A DNA stretch of 64,000 bases from Gemmatimonadota bacterium (GTDB lineage Bacteria; Gemmatimonadota; Gemmatimonadetes; Longimicrobiales; Gaopeijiaceae), in NCBI GenBank assembly GCA_028873815.1, contig JAPPNN010000072.1, forward strand, positions 1 through 64,000. Direction: 5' to 3'. The translations under genes and the position numbers were made by a program. Under the pieces are notes generated by a model. It was not told where the DNA came from. It worked only from the letters and a program-made list of their open reading frames with translations, and searched no databases. Positions 6,877 through 63,999 of this stretch are shown here, in pieces; position 1 is the first letter of the stretch, and every line of letters starts with the position of its first letter.

Positions 6877-6994
6877 TTGTCGGGATTCGGTCGGCGTGAA
6901 CAGTGGCGGGATTCATGGCAATCTCGGATAACCCGAGCGGTGCCGCCAGACGTTACCTTTGAACGGTCGGCTACCCGTACCCCGAGGCGGCGCA

Positions 6995-8257
6995 TTGCGT
7001 TTCATTCACATCGCCGATGTTCACCTCGACACCGCCTTCGCGGGCCGGTCGGAAGAAGTGCGAAGCCGGCTGCGCGAAGCCGCCCGCGAAGCGTTCGCTC
7101 GGTGTGTCGACACCGCCGTGTCCGAAGAGGTCCACGCGGTTCTCATCGCCGGCGACCTCTTCGACGGGGCGCGTCTGTCGTTCGGCAGCGAGGGCCTTCT
7201 GTTGCGGCAGCTCGCGGTTCTGGCCGAGGCCGGCATCCAGGTGGTCTACGCGACCGGGAACCACGATCCCGGAAGCGGGCCGAGCGTGCAGGATCTCGCC
7301 TGGCCGGACAACGTCACCGTCATGGCCGGCGGCGATCCGGCCACGGTGACCATCGTGAGCCGGCAGGGTCATCCGGTCGGAACCGTGACCGGCGCGGGGC
7401 ACGCGACCGCCCGCGAGACCGCCGACCTCGCCAGCGGTCTCCGCCCCCGCACCGCGACCCGCCTGCCGCGCGTGGCCCTGCTGCACACCCAGGTCACCTC
7501 GGCCAGCGGCAGCGAACTTCACCAGGCCTATGCGCCCTCCAGCCTGGAGGTCCTGCGCGGAGCGGGCTTCGACTACTGGGCGCTCGGACACGTCCACCAG
7601 CGTCAGGCGCTCTCGACCGACCCGCCCGTCCACTACCCCGGCAACCTCCAGGGGCGCAACCCTCGCGAGACGGGCCCCAAGGGCGGTCTGCTCGTCGACC
7701 TTCACGACGCCGCGCATCCGGTGGTCGAATTCCGGGAGTTCACGCCGGTCCGGTGGGAGAGGCTTGCCCTGGCGGGTCTGGAGAACGCGCGCACGATGGA
7801 GGCGCTCGTGGAACGGGTCGTCGATGCCTGGGACGAGGCCCGGTCGGCCGACCCGGGAAGCGACACGACGGAGTGGGTGGTTACCGTGGATCTGGCGGGC
7901 CCGTCCCCGGTGTGGCGCAAGCTGCGCGAACGCGAGGAGCTGGACGCGCTGGAACAGGAGTGCGCGGACTGCCTGGGCGCCCTATCGGTCCGGATCCGGG
8001 CCGGCGGCACGCACGCTAAGGTAAGGCTGGCGGACCATGTCGATCGCCAGGACGCGCTGGGTGCGTCGCTCCGCCTGTGCACGCGCGTCGCGGCGGGCGA
8101 CGACCGCCTTGGTCTTGAAGAAGCGGATTTCGCCGGGTTCGACCCCGAACGCCACGGGTCCCTCGAGGCGTACATTCGGCGTCTGCTCGACGGAGCGGAA
8201 GCCGAGATCATGGCCAGGATGCTCACCGGCGCAACCACCGATACGGGCTCGCCATGA
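6995..8257 (+). CDS. YhaO-type metallophosphoesterase (DNA repair exonuclease family)
   Basis: This 420-residue protein has all five motifs of the Mre11/SbcD-like phosphoesterase fold: ADVHLD near the N-terminus, AGDLFDGA, TGNHDPG, a lone His in ALLHTQ, and GHVHQRQ. All metal ligands are therefore present and nuclease activity is expected. The TTG at 6995 is preferred because it gives the family-typical start RFIHIADVHLD and has GAGG seven bases upstream; another TTG at 6959 is possible. The stop overlaps the ATG of the next gene by four bases (ATGA), so the two products are probably made together. The C-terminal part (about residue 250 onward) is a capping domain of the YhaO type. The role is inferred to be processing of DNA ends or unusual DNA structures. 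Confidence 0.88.
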   Translation: MRFIHIADVHLDTAFAGRSEEVRSRLREAAREAFARCVDTAVSEEVHAVLIAGDLFDGARLSFGSEGLLLRQLAVLAEAGIQVVYATGNHDPGSGPSVQDLAWPDNVTVMAGGDPATVTIVSRQGHPVGTVTGAGHATARETADLASGLRPRTATRLPRVALLHTQVTSASGSELHQAYAPSSLEVLRGAGFDYWALGHVHQRQALSTDPPVHYPGNLQGRNPRETGPKGGLLVDLHDAAHPVVEFREFTPVRWERLALAGLENARTMEALVERVVDAWDEARSADPGSDTTEWVVTVDLAGPSPVWRKLREREELDALEQECADCLGALSVRIRAGGTHAKVRLADHVDRQDALGASLRLCTRVAAGDDRLGLEEADFAGFDPERHGSLEAYIRRLLDGAEAEIMARMLTGATTDTGSP

Positions 8258-10746
8258 GATTCGATTCGATCGATGTCGCGCGCTACGGCTGCCTGACCAA
8301 CCTCTCGACAGGCGACGACCCGCTCCCGAACATCGTGGTCGTGCTCGGCCCCAACGAGAGCGGAAAGTCAACTTTATTTGACTTAATGTCAACTTTAGTT
8401 TACGGTTTTCGCCCAGCGACCCGCGCCAGGCACCCATTCACGCCCTGGGCAGGCGGAGATCCCGAGGGCCGCGCCCGGATCCGTCTCGACCAGAGTGCCG
8501 ATGCTCCCGTGATCGAGGTCCACCGGCGCCTGCGGTCGCAGGCGTGGGGCAGGCTGCACATCGGCGAGCGTGTGGACGACATCCGCAACCATCCCCTCCC
8601 CGCCGCCCATCACGTGACCCGCGTCGTGTTCCGCCAGGTATACGCACTGACCCTCGCCGAGCTTGCCGGCCTCGAGGGCGAGAGCTGGGACCTCGTGCAG
8701 GATCGGCTGGTGGGGGCGATGGCAGCGCCGGATCTGCACTCGGCACGCACCGTTGCGGCCGGCCTGGAAGACGAGGCGAAACGGCAGTGGCGGCCCGATC
8801 GGCGCGGCCGGCCCCGTGTGCGCGTGCTCGCGGCCGAATTGGCCGCCTTGAACGAGCGCAAGCGCGATGCTCTCTACCGGGACCGCGCAGTGCGGGAGAA
8901 GGTGGCGGAGCGGGCGGGCGCCGAGACCAGGCTCCAGGCGCTGCGCGAGAAGAGGTCCCGCGAGCGGGAGCGTCGCGGCGTAATCGACCACCGATTGAAC
9001 CGTCTGCTCCCCGTGCGGCGGGCGCTGGCGCGGATTGACGAGCTTCGCGCCAGGGCGGGAGCCGCGAGCGACCTGGAGGCGCTGCCGAACAGGCCGGCCG
9101 AACGACTGAGCGAACTGCGCGAGGAAGCGCGCGCCGCAGTGGAGCGGGTCGCCCTTCTCGAAGGGAGGCGGCAGGAAACGGTCGCGGCCGGGACTGAAGG
9201 CGAGCGCCTTCGCGCACGTTGGGAGGAGCACGCCGGGTCACTGTTCTCGGAGCTGCCGGGCGATGGTGCCCGTGAGGCGCTCGCCGCGGTTTCCACGGAG
9301 GAACTCCGCGGCCGGGTGCGGGCGTTCGAGGCTGCGCGCGAGGACCGCCGCGTGGCCGAGGAGGGTCTCCTGCGCGGCGCGGACGATCTGCCGGTGGCGC
9401 TCAAGCCCGCCAAGAGCCGGTTGGTGGCGGGAGTCGTCCTGCTGCTGGTCGGGGTTGCCATCGCGGCTCTCACGCTGCCGCAGGTCGGTGTGGAGCTTCC
9501 GCTGGGCAATGCCTTCGCGCTCCGCGTGGGCGCCGTCGCCGCGATCGGGGGGTTCCTCCTGACGATTCTGTGGTGGGATGCCGATCGGCGGGCGCGGCGG
9601 TACGGCAAGGCCACAGCCGACGCCCGGGGATACCGGTCCGGGCAAGTGACGCAGCTCCGCGAGGCCGAGGAAGCGGCGCGCGGCGAGGCCGTGAGCCTCG
9701 TCGCCGCTCTTCCCATCCGCGATACCCTTCTGGAGGCCCCGGACATGGAGCTTCCGGCCCGGATCGAACGCATGCTGGAGCTTCTGGCCACGCGGGACCA
9801 GCGCGCCACCGCCACGCGCCGCGACCTGGAGCGTGCAGAGGACGACCTGGCAGCCGCCCGGCGGGACCACGAGGCCGTGACCAGGCGCCTACGCGACCTG
9901 GAGACGAGGCTGGCCGACCTCGGCAACGGCGACGCCGAGCGCGGAGCCCGCGAGGCCGCTGCTCGGACGGAAGCGGCGCAGAGAGCCGATCAGATACGGG
10001 GCGAACTGGAGCGGGAGTGGCCCGAGCTGGACCGGGTCGAGGCCGAAATCCGCGAGGCGGACGCGGCCGGCACGGACTGGGCGTCCCTCGCCGAAGCGCT
10101 CCGTGACGCGTCCGGGCGGCACGATGCGCTCGCCGAGGAGGGCGAGGAGCTGAGCAGCACGATCACGAGACTCGACACCGAGATCCGCCACCTGCAGGAA
10201 GGGGACACTCCCGACCGGGTCGAGGGGCGCATCCAGGCGGTCAAGGAGCGGATCCGCGACGCGAAGGAGGCCCGGGACCGGTCGTTTCTGCTCGCGAGGA
10301 TCGTCCGCGAAGCCGATCGCCGCTTCCGGGACGAGCACCAGCCCGACCTGCTCCGCCGCGCCGCGGATCACCTCCGGCACATCACGGCCGGCCGCTACGA
10401 GCACATCGAAATGGGCGAGACGGGCGACGAATCCTTCTATCTGAGCGGCCCCGCCGCATCCACGCCGAGGAAGGTCGGCCAGGCGCTCTCGCAGGGAACC
10501 AGGGAGCAGGTGTACCTGGCCCTGCGCCTGGCCATCATCGATCACCTCGACGCCGGCGAGGAGCGCCTCCCGCTCTTCATGGACGAGACCCTGGTCAACT
10601 GGGACGCCTGGCGTCGCGACCGCGCCTTCGGGCTGCTGGAGCGGGTCGCGGAGAAGCGCCAGGTGTTCGTCTTCACCTGCCACCCCGCCATGGCCGCCGA
10701 ACTGGAGGACCGCGGCGGCCGGATCGTGGCGCTGGGGAACCGCTAG
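8254..10746 (+). CDS. YhaN-type Rad50-like ATPase with two membrane segments
   Basis: The protein has 830 residues. The N-terminal ATPase half has Walker A GPNESGKST at residues 32-40. Long coiled-coil arms follow (about 190-380 and 445-690). Between the arms lie two hydrophobic segments (about 389-408 and 422-441), as is known for YhaN proteins, so the coiled-coil apex is probably membrane-anchored. The C-terminal half has a signature region LSQGTREQVYLALR and a Walker B motif LPLFMDET. There is no CxxC zinc hook. The gene overlaps the phosphoesterase gene by four bases, and the products should form an Mre11-Rad50-like complex. A short AT-rich patch with rare Leu and Ser codons lies directly after the Walker A lysine (8367-8400). 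Confidence 0.88.
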   Translation: MRFDSIDVARYGCLTNLSTGDDPLPNIVVVLGPNESGKSTLFDLMSTLVYGFRPATRARHPFTPWAGGDPEGRARIRLDQSADAPVIEVHRRLRSQAWGRLHIGERVDDIRNHPLPAAHHVTRVVFRQVYALTLAELAGLEGESWDLVQDRLVGAMAAPDLHSARTVAAGLEDEAKRQWRPDRRGRPRVRVLAAELAALNERKRDALYRDRAVREKVAERAGAETRLQALREKRSRERERRGVIDHRLNRLLPVRRALARIDELRARAGAASDLEALPNRPAERLSELREEARAAVERVALLEGRRQETVAAGTEGERLRARWEEHAGSLFSELPGDGAREALAAVSTEELRGRVRAFEAAREDRRVAEEGLLRGADDLPVALKPAKSRLVAGVVLLLVGVAIAALTLPQVGVELPLGNAFALRVGAVAAIGGFLLTILWWDADRRARRYGKATADARGYRSGQVTQLREAEEAARGEAVSLVAALPIRDTLLEAPDMELPARIERMLELLATRDQRATATRRDLERAEDDLAAARRDHEAVTRRLRDLETRLADLGNGDAERGAREAAARTEAAQRADQIRGELEREWPELDRVEAEIREADAAGTDWASLAEALRDASGRHDALAEEGEELSSTITRLDTEIRHLQEGDTPDRVEGRIQAVKERIRDAKEARDRSFLLARIVREADRRFRDEHQPDLLRRAADHLRHITAGRYEHIEMGETGDESFYLSGPAASTPRKVGQALSQGTREQVYLALRLAIIDHLDAGEERLPLFMDETLVNWDAWRRDRAFGLLERVAEKRQVFVFTCHPAMAAELEDRGGRIVALGNR

Positions 10747-61444: not shown

Positions 61445-62914
61445 CTAGTCGACCTGCAGCCAGATCGTGCCCAGGCCCGACCGGTCGCGGCGCAGGCGGC
61501 GCCCCTCGGGCACGTCCTCGACCCTGTAGAGCAAGTCGAAGCACTCGGGGAACGCCGAAGCAACCCCGTGCGTGGTCCTGACCAGGAGCAGGGGGATGCG
61601 CCGCGACAGGCGTACCAGTTCCACCAGCGCCCGATGGACATCCTCCCGCCCGAGGCGGTTGAGGCCGGCGGGAAGGACCACCGATTGCAGCGGTACGCCG
61701 GCGTCCACCGCCAACTCCGCCAACGCGATCCTGACCGCCAGCTCCAGCACCGCGAATTCCTTCCCGCCCCGGCGTCCCCCGTCGGCCCAGTCGGCGAAAA
61801 GCGCCGGGAAGACCCCGGCCAGGCGCCCTCCGGTCAATGACAGAACCCTGGCGTGGACAAGCGAGCGGACGCGTTCACGCGCGGCGCGAACGAGTTCGGC
61901 ACGCACCTCTTCCATCTCGACGCTCCCTCGGCGCCTCCCCAGGCGGGCTTCCAGGGCCGCCAACTCGTCCACACGACCGATCGCGGCCTCGAGCTCCAAT
62001 CCCCGGATTTTCCGGCGCTCCAGTTCCTCGGACAGCTCGTTGACTGCGCTGTCCAGCTCCATCGCTCTGGTCTCGATCGCCTTGAGATCGTCGGGCTTGC
62101 GTTCGAGCTGATCCCTGCGCCTCCGCCACCAGCGCCCGTCCTGCACCACGGCTTCCCATTCCTCGCGGCGGGCATTCCGCACGGCCTGGGCGCGGTCCTG
62201 CAGCGGCTGGCCACAGCTGCGGCACGCGGCCTCGTCTCCTTCCTCGTCGAGGCGCTTGAGGCGGTCCCGCAGCTCGCGTTCGCGATCCCGATACAGCAAC
62301 AGCCGCGTCTCGGCGTCCTGGCGCTCGCGCACCCACGCCATCATTCCCGCTTCCACGTCTCCATGCACCTCCGCCGCCTCCCCACGCGCTTCCCGCAGCT
62401 TCGCCTCCAGCGCTTCCAGACCTTCACCGGACCGGCTCAGACGCTCCACGTCCTCCTTCCCCTCGAGGATCATGCGACGCACGAACCCATCCACCGACCC
62501 GTCGCGCACGGAACCACCGTCTCCTTCCGGCGCAAGCAGGCGCCCCAACTCACGCACCCTGCGGGTCGTCTCGGGGCCCTGGCAAAGCGTGGCCGCAGCC
62601 GACAGCCACGTTGTCACGGGTCCACCACCGAACCACACGGCTGCATACTCCTCCCGGGATAGCACGTGCGCGGTCAGTGTCGGCGCGAGCACTTCCTCGA
62701 AGGCCCGGCCGCCCACCCCCATCGTGCCATCGCCCGTTCGTACGAGGACCCTGGGCCCGCCAGGCCGACCCGGCCTCGTGAAGCCCTCGCGCAGCGAAGA
62801 CATGAACTCCCCCCAGAGCGGACCGCCATCGGCGACGAAGGCAACCAGACCCCGCCCGTCCTGAAGGTCGAGCACGGGTCCGCGCAGACCCGCCTGAAGC
62901 ACATCGATCTTCAT
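61445..62914 (-). CDS. SbcC/Rad50-like protein with zinc hook but degenerate ATPase
   Basis: The 489-residue protein has the layout of a shortened Rad50. An N-terminal lobe (1-150) precedes a coiled coil (about 153-330) with a hook C231-R-S-C234 followed by GQPL. A C-terminal lobe follows, with LTGGRLAGVFP (360-370). The ATPase motifs are broken: the Walker A position near residues 25-40 reads VADGGPLWGEFMSS, without Gly-Lys-Ser/Thr. The signature region reads RGGKE (382-386), and Walker B reads SVVLPAGLN (411-419), with Pro-Ala where Asp-Glu should be. Only a THG His-switch (449) remains. It overlaps the phosphoesterase gene by four bases. ATP hydrolysis is unlikely; a structural role is inferred. 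Confidence 0.75.
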   Translation of the reverse strand: MKIDVLQAGLRGPVLDLQDGRGLVAFVADGGPLWGEFMSSLREGFTRPGRPGGPRVLVRTGDGTMGVGGRAFEEVLAPTLTAHVLSREEYAAVWFGGGPVTTWLSAAATLCQGPETTRRVRELGRLLAPEGDGGSVRDGSVDGFVRRMILEGKEDVERLSRSGEGLEALEAKLREARGEAAEVHGDVEAGMMAWVRERQDAETRLLLYRDRERELRDRLKRLDEEGDEAACRSCGQPLQDRAQAVRNARREEWEAVVQDGRWWRRRRDQLERKPDDLKAIETRAMELDSAVNELSEELERRKIRGLELEAAIGRVDELAALEARLGRRRGSVEMEEVRAELVRAARERVRSLVHARVLSLTGGRLAGVFPALFADWADGGRRGGKEFAVLELAVRIALAELAVDAGVPLQSVVLPAGLNRLGREDVHRALVELVRLSRRIPLLLVRTTHGVASAFPECFDLLYRVEDVPEGRRLRRDRSGLGTIWLQVD

Positions 62915-63999
62915 GTCTGTGCCCCCTCTGCCACCGGGATCGCACCCGGCGCGGAAGCCACGAGCCCGGGCACCCCGGCACCGGAGGCTCCGCGACCGCG
63001 ACGGGCGCCCTTGCCACCCCTCCCGTGCGAGGCCCCCTGTCCAGGCAGCGCGTCAATCCTCAGCTCGGCCACCCGGCGCCGTACCCGCGCCAGGACCTCA
63101 CGATCGAGCACGGCGAGGTCGTCGGCTGAAAGTCCCCTCACCGGAATCCGCAACAGCTTTCCGTCGATTCCCCCGGGGACCCCGGCCAACGCCTCGCTCA
63201 GGCGCCGCGTCACGGTCGCAGTCCCGCCACCCGTGGCCTCGACGGGCGCCAGGCTCACGGCGGCCCGCGCCTCCACGGGCCAGAAGGTCACCTCGTGGCC
63301 CGATCCGCGACCACGACCGGATTGCGCCTTGTCCACCCCGAGCCGTGCGGTGACAAACCCCTTGGCTGTCGCGGCCTCGGCCCAGGGATCGGCACCTACA
63401 CGCTCGAGAGAGCCGGCGTAGCAGGCGCGCTCGGTGACGGGGGTGTAGGTGTGGTCGGATCCCAGCGCGACGTAGTCCCATCCGTCCAGCGGTATCCGCA
63501 CGGCGTGCGACCGTCCCGACGCCAGCGCGGCATGCATGACGAGCACGTTCCACGTGGCATCCGGGTCCGGTGACAAATCGACGGCGCGAGACCCCATCAC
63601 CGCACGGTGCGGCACCAGAGTGACACTGACCGAGCCGTCGCGCAGGCTGAGCCGACGGACGCTGTTGGACGCCACCTCGACCGCCTCCAGGGCGCCGACC
63701 ACCGTGAGCGGCCCGTCCCGGTCGGCGTCCAGCGGCGTGTCCCGCGCCCCGGCCGCCACCGCCACCACCACCCCGGGGAGCCTCTCGCGCAGCGTGCGGA
63801 CCGCGCGTCCGAAGGCCGCGATGGGCGTGGCGGTCACGTCGGGGTGGTCGAAGACGTCGCCCGACACGACCACCAGCTCCACCCCGATCTCCGCGATTCG
63901 AACCAGGGCCGTCTCGAAGATCCGCAGAACGTCCCGGGCCCGTCCCGCCCCGGCACCGCCGTACCCCAGGTGCAGGTCCGAGATGTGCGCCAGCTTCAC
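62911..63999 (-). CDS. SbcD/Mre11-like phosphoesterase with lost active-site residues
   Basis: The 362-residue protein begins at a GTG (63999) in the SbcD-typical form KLAHISDLHLG. Motif I (Asp8, His10) and motif II (SGDVFDH, Asp48) are intact. Motif III reads GARD (84-87) instead of GNHD, which loses a metal ligand and the catalytic His. Motif IV His156 is kept. Motif V reads GSDH (180-183) instead of GHxH. Nuclease activity is therefore doubtful. The last 50 residues are Gly/Arg-rich (GRGGKGARRGRG) and may bind nucleic acid. The gene overlaps its SbcC-like partner by four bases (ATGA), so both products are probably made in equal amounts. The start lies at the window edge, so upstream context is missing. 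Confidence 0.78.
   Translation of the reverse strand: MKLAHISDLHLGYGGAGAGRARDVLRIFETALVRIAEIGVELVVVSGDVFDHPDVTATPIAAFGRAVRTLRERLPGVVVAVAAGARDTPLDADRDGPLTVVGALEAVEVASNSVRRLSLRDGSVSVTLVPHRAVMGSRAVDLSPDPDATWNVLVMHAALASGRSHAVRIPLDGWDYVALGSDHTYTPVTERACYAGSLERVGADPWAEAATAKGFVTARLGVDKAQSGRGRGSGHEVTFWPVEARAAVSLAPVEATGGGTATVTRRLSEALAGVPGGIDGKLLRIPVRGLSADDLAVLDREVLARVRRRVAELRIDALPGQGASHGRGGKGARRGRGASGAGVPGLVASAPGAIPVAEGAQT

Follow-up and report, generated by a model that had tools for sequence, protein, structure and literature searches.

A Mre11-Rad50-like gene pair from one family of Gemmatimonadota with lost catalytic motifs and a conserved zinc-hook motif

Rad50 chains join through one zinc at their hook. 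To our knowledge, structural duties of Mre11-Rad50 beyond cutting and ATP hydrolysis have been argued mainly from engineered mutants. In PMC6969161 the Rad50 hook is described as a constitutive dimerisation module that can be replaced by an SMC hinge. Fusions of Mre11 and Rad50 with largely intact motifs are also already known, and Mimivirus R555, one of these MRFP fusions, has Walker A, Walker B and most of the nuclease residues according to PMC3175470. Here we describe a gene pair in a 64,000-nucleotide stretch of DNA (the window; contig JAPPNN010000072.1 of assembly GCA_028873815.1) from a Gemmatimonadota bacterium of the family Gaopeijiaceae (f1 below), which encodes an Mre11/SbcD-like protein, D, and a Rad50/SbcC-like protein, C. 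Many Gemmatimonadota carry a second Mre11-Rad50 system, whose motifs are intact in other families; we consider it rather probable that the pair is this system after the loss of its nuclease and ATPase motifs in this one family, and that it has become a structural complex. Sequence, predicted structure and substitution rates show that both folds are kept. GNHD has lost its Asn and its catalytic His, GHxH has mostly lost its first His, C has no ATP motifs and reduced arms, and the CxxC of the hook is invariant. The features of the locus are as follows.

62911..63999, minus strand: D, pseudo-Mre11/SbcD of 362 aa with a GTG start (from the open reading frame, profile matches and motif reading)
61445..62914, minus strand: C, pseudo-Rad50/SbcC of 489 aa with an ATG start; two halves of an ABC-type head that lack the ATP motifs, a coiled coil of reduced length, and the hook (from the open reading frame, relatives and predicted fold)
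62911..62914, minus strand: ATGA overlap of the stop of D with the start of C
63970..63978, minus strand: D8-L9-H10 of D, kept metal-A ligands
63739..63750, minus strand: D residues 84-87, GARD where GNHD is expected; Asn replaced by Ala and catalytic His by Arg
63451..63462, minus strand: D residues 180-183, GSDH where GHxH is expected; last His kept, first His gone
62804..62830, minus strand: C residues 29-37, where a Walker A loop would lie; no P-loop present
62039..62374, minus strand: hook segment, C residues 181-292, gapless over 26 aligned rows and the best conserved part of the decayed proteins
62213..62224, minus strand: hook CRSC, C residues 231-234

A first-pass annotation of the window had described an ATGA-coupled pair with SbcD/SbcC architecture, whose phosphoesterase reads GARD for GNHD and GSDH for GHxH; both open reading frames, their overlap and both motif readings were confirmed. 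In profile searches D matched the Mre11 and SbcD models (E 1.9e-8 and 2.4e-7, both far under the curated cut-offs) and passed the Pfam Metallophos cut-off, and structure prediction gave it the Mre11 nuclease and capping-domain fold. The motifs of D read SDLH, GDVFD, GARD, MHA and GSDH, so placed that Asp8, His10, Asp48, His156 and His183 occupy Asp/His ligand positions of Mre11; the two-metal site with catalytic GNHD and GHxH is missing. The split into sites A and B and the P. furiosus Mre11 numbers Asp8, His10, Asp49, Asn84 and His85 are used here as we take them to be conventionally assigned. His173, His206 and His208 are given as residues of the same protein in PMC3175470, and H85S is named in a PDB title among the structural matches.

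The same losses recur among relatives. Across 84 decayed D rows, neither the Asn of GNHD nor the catalytic His occurs even once, the His being replaced by Arg in 82 and by Ser in two, and the first His of GHxH is present in seven; the position of His173 is kept in 52. Asp8 is retained in 83 rows, His10 in 82, the GD aspartate in 81 and the last His in 79, with all four found together in 79. All nine residues are present in 16 of 16 intact D rows. Under the usual site assignment, metal site A is retained, and what has been lost is site B together with the catalytic His. One full metal site kept in most members makes another metal-dependent chemistry possible. Such a re-purposed enzyme, in which D with one metal in site A does a different reaction and C is its zinc-joined carrier, seems to us unlikely, if worth weighing: it would account for the joint retention of four residues in 79 of 84 rows next to the loss of the other three, and the PDB title of 4fbk describes an Mre11 with one manganese per active site, but the usual catalytic His is missing in 84 of 84 rows and four loci (L083, L129, L157 and L161) lose part of site A, with L129/L157 still giving ratios of nonsynonymous to synonymous substitution rates (dN/dS) of 0.10 for D and 0.16 for C. 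L083 is the most decayed member, most of metal site A being gone from its D too, and its partner still has the hook CPTC.

The C-terminal tail of D also varies. In the window's genus it is of low complexity or 4-6 residues long in the rows examined, and helix-like tails persist elsewhere in f1. A strict tail pattern was found in 8 of 16 intact rows versus 0 of 37 split decayed rows; a general loss of the helix-like tail in decayed D was nevertheless dropped as a candidate feature, since helix-like tails of 35-55 residues occur in many split decayed rows from other genera.

No Pfam match was found for C, the SMC/Rad50 models match it via the coiled coil only, and other searches likewise gave coiled-coil matches only, so that its kinship with Rad50/SbcC rests on its relatives and its fold. 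Profile searches with both families, as the first-pass annotation had proposed, placed D (below the curated cut-offs) but not C. Structure prediction gave C an ABC-type head fold assembled from both chain ends, and both expected folds, Mre11 and Rad50, were thus predicted. The loss of the Walker A Lys and the Walker B Asp noted in the first pass holds and is wider than described there: the P-loop, signature, Walker B and H-loop, all present in intact relatives, are replaced in C. The CxxC at residues 231-234 is likewise where it had been placed, whereas the LTGGR motif listed beside it is present but does not correspond to the ABC signature; its counterpart in the intact relatives is LTDGR, upstream of their signature SGGEED, which is itself lost in C.

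The CRSC hook of C sits between long predicted helices and would be the zinc-binding site. CxxC is found in 79 of 79 decayed rows that contain the segment (4 of 83 lack C or the segment). Between the Walker A position and the hook lie 375 residues in each of 13 intact rows versus a median of 166 (74-232) in 67 decayed rows, and the four residues after a conserved WW near the hook include on average 3.35 basic residues in 79 decayed rows versus 1.57 in 14 intact rows. Mean pairwise identities of N-lobe, hook and C-lobe are 0.27, 0.56 and 0.33 among the decayed proteins (81 rows) and 0.73, 0.55 and 0.81 among the intact ones (16 rows); because the decayed set covers more lineages, the order of the regions is informative and the identity levels are not. 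Over long distances, the order of constraint between head lobes and hook is inverted in decayed compared to intact rows.

Of 59 genomes from the window's own genus, family and order (own genome counted), 44 gave a match to D and 43 a match to C, a few of the D matches being weak matches to ordinary SbcD. From 129 D rows, merging of 20 near-identical ones and removal of the short L168 left 108, namely 84 decayed, 16 intact and eight outgroup rows (L113 was counted as outgroup, L088 and L089 come from the same genome, and L104 lies outside the decayed clade). The nearest D among the kept records is that of L118 (Gemmatimonadetes bacterium SB0672_bin_21), identical in sequence to L079 of G019 and 94% identical to the window copy. 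The retrieved loci divide sharply: those of f1 are decayed, while in the sister families f2 and f3 the nuclease residues are kept in 16 D rows, and those C rows long enough to cover the motifs retain GPNG(A/S)GKST, SGGEED, LDEV(F/L)GSLD and the TH of the H-loop. The exception is L104 (G054, f3), in which D is changed (GDRD, GHHP) and the adjoining C is motif-intact, which is a separate loss confined to the nuclease partner.

A hook scan of GTDB genomes yielded 97 relatives, of which 80 were kept, 79 labelled Gemmatimonadota or a subgroup and one Gammaproteobacteria (L184). A D frame was present in 77 of these loci and absent from L151, L158 and L163; 75 were decayed and two (L193, L194) intact, although decayed copies are favoured here, as the scan patterns were drawn mostly from decayed hooks. 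L184 (labelled Gammaproteobacteria bacterium Ww582) carries a fused pair of the f1 type; L151 (Gemmatimonadetes Ww584) is from the same sample series, which makes a mislabelled or mixed bin likely. In a sample of the phylum the hook was found in 240 of 298 genomes. As a counter-check of the scan bias we hand-chose 20 loci from among these matches, 19 outside f1 (f4, f5, f6 and f9, with f6 represented by one genome) and one within it. Outside f1, GNHD was present in 17 of 17 D frames, with the first His of GHxH being Glu or Asp in two, and two were cut before the first motif; all motifs were present in 18 of 19 C frames, the remaining one being cut short. The f1 locus was decayed. No Mre11-like frame adjoins either of two hook loci of one f9 genome (L201 and L202, G217) within their 8-kb stretches. 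So far, decay appears to be a property of f1. A lone mutant or sequencing error is ruled out by the clade-wide changes, and chance similarity by the profile matches and the relatives.

Selection was assessed from dN/dS in 16 decayed pairs trimmed to frames. For D the values were 0.04-0.26, with a median of 0.14, and for C they were 0.05-0.46, with a median of 0.22, compared to 0.06-0.26 for neighbouring genes and 0.11 for D and C alike in one intact pair. In C of the window against three near relatives, regional values were 0.06-0.11 for the N- and C-lobes, 0.04-0.13 for the hook and 0.08-0.79 for the arms. These results bear on a decaying pseudogene pair, to which we give next to no credence: lost catalytic motifs, heads strongly diverged at long distances and the absence of the pair from some genomes could speak for one, but dN/dS is below 0.5 in 32 of 32 decayed comparisons, CxxC is kept in 79 of 79 rows and Arg in 82 of 84, and the frames are long and open. 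The first-pass suggestion that decay in both partners marks a selected pair and not a dying gene is borne out, the window copy being one of 84 decayed rows and dN/dS lying far below 1. By all sequence signs, the pair is under selection and is a non-catalytic Mre11-Rad50 derivative with the hook as its best conserved part.

The origin of the decayed clade was addressed with trees made by quick searches. Without the catalytic columns, 83 decayed rows fell on one side of a branch with a Shimodaira-Hasegawa-like approximate likelihood-ratio (SH-aLRT) support of 99, in a tree that misplaced two outgroup rows across this branch and drew long branches together. A second tree took in other families and left out the worst rows; the 40 decayed rows that it included all grouped together (94), and this group stood next to the intact rows instead of within them, the root branch being long. 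This position, in a tree rooted on canonical SbcD, would fit an old paralogue of the intact pair that decayed long ago, but the long branch makes the root unsure. Such an origin is in our view improbable, as there is a single hook match in 59 of 61 family carriers (G222 and G144 have a second, weak one) and gene order is shared with intact loci. The order common to L062 and L063 (decayed) and L093 (intact) is sigma factor, RsgA, membrane gene, D, C and an anthranilate-synthase gene, with a TMEM260-like gene intervening in L062 and L063 and two small or lipoprotein-like genes in L093. Decay in place is favoured by this shared order; the tree alone is not decisive. A single unbroken frame, in which an internal start is possible, spans D and C in 45 of 80 scanned loci and 46 of 83 merged rows, and the fused or split state changed at least eight times on the tree. 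Together with the ATGA overlap, these are indirect hints that the two partners may form one complex.

Upstream of D, a GTGA at its start overlaps the stop of a gene whose bulk lies outside the window, the contig continuing past the edge. Its counterpart in L062 (8997-10346, minus strand; cluster 3) encodes a membrane-type protein with no Pfam match and the same GTGA overlap with D; one homologue matches spermidine synthase weakly, under the cut-off. In 48 loci a homologue of this gene is found upstream of D, close to it in the f1 loci and farther away in the intact loci and in L104.

The window's genome also carries a motif-intact SbcCD on contig C25. Within the window itself, positions 6959-10746 (plus strand) hold a coupled pair with no CxxC, made up of a metallophosphoesterase of 432 aa, in which GNHD and GHVH are intact, and an AAA_27-type ATPase of 830 aa with GPNESGKST; the two presumably resemble YhaO/YhaN. 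Of 78 family genomes, 61 carry the hook and 14 have SbcD over the curated cut-off, eight of these among the 61, an absence that is soft since only 8 of 14 control genomes reach this cut-off. The window genome's own SbcC is matched in 16 of the 78; the SbcC model has matches in 72, none over the cut-off and many of them short P-loop matches in SMC-sized frames. These data bear on the idea that the decayed pair regulates active SbcCD, or serves as its decoy, by entering mixed dimers through the hook. The SbcCD on C25 and the hook as best preserved part are in its favour; however, with SbcD over the cut-off in so few hook carriers, a dependence on SbcCD in every carrier is unlikely, own SbcC is matched in a minority of genomes and the window's other phosphoesterase-ATPase pair lacks CxxC. 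We regard this idea as quite improbable, slightly more so than the paralogue.

Returning to a structural complex, the decayed pair probably works by holding together rather than by cutting. Two C chains would be joined via one zinc at the hook, as in Rad50, each carrying a D head through coupled translation or direct fusion; the outcome would be a permanently linked, ATP-independent dimer that may serve as a scaffold or as a tether, conceivably on DNA. In D, the retained metal-A site and the Arg are likely to stabilise the fold or to bind a single metal that carries out no hydrolysis. The account of the hook in PMC6969161 fits a structural role. More tentatively, and with somewhat less than even confidence, we propose that the zinc hook itself is the selected function in f1, forming an ATP-independent, non-cutting bridge or ring that would permanently connect two heads and serve as a tether for DNA or some other nucleoid partner, in lineages mostly without SbcD over the cut-off. 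If so, the pair would be a natural separation-of-function Mre11-Rad50, kept over about 80 species. In this natural clade both sets of catalytic motifs have disappeared and the hook is the best conserved part, and its intact relatives share the hook and partly the neighbours, which makes the question of structural duties directly testable. It also follows that annotation as SbcC or SbcD by homology can mislead about activity.

Among the matches listed in the open-access literature, titles and abstract openings gave no report of catalytically dead Mre11-Rad50 pairs or of a Gemmatimonadota version, and the string 'gemmatimon' is absent from the text of PMC3175470. Lamassu LmuB gives a weak match to C (E 7.8e-5), confined to the coiled-coil part, and LmuB chains are also among the structural matches. 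YhaO/YhaN-type pairs similarly combine a metallophosphoesterase with an SMC-like ATPase, but the pair of this type in the window keeps GNHD, GHVH and the P-loop and has no CxxC hook. Like the MRFP fusions described in PMC3175470, the 45 fused loci have Mre11-like and Rad50-like parts in a single chain; unlike them, the window pair is split and the fused relatives are without working motifs. Collectively, D and C are most similar to Mre11-Rad50/SbcCD, with which they share paired genes, an Mre11 fold, a Rad50-like head, a coiled coil and a CxxC hook. They differ in having no GNHD, mostly no full GHxH, and no Walker A, signature, Walker B or H-loop, in their shorter arms and, in the window's genus, in a D whose tail is of low complexity or just a few residues long, where intact copies have a helix-like one.
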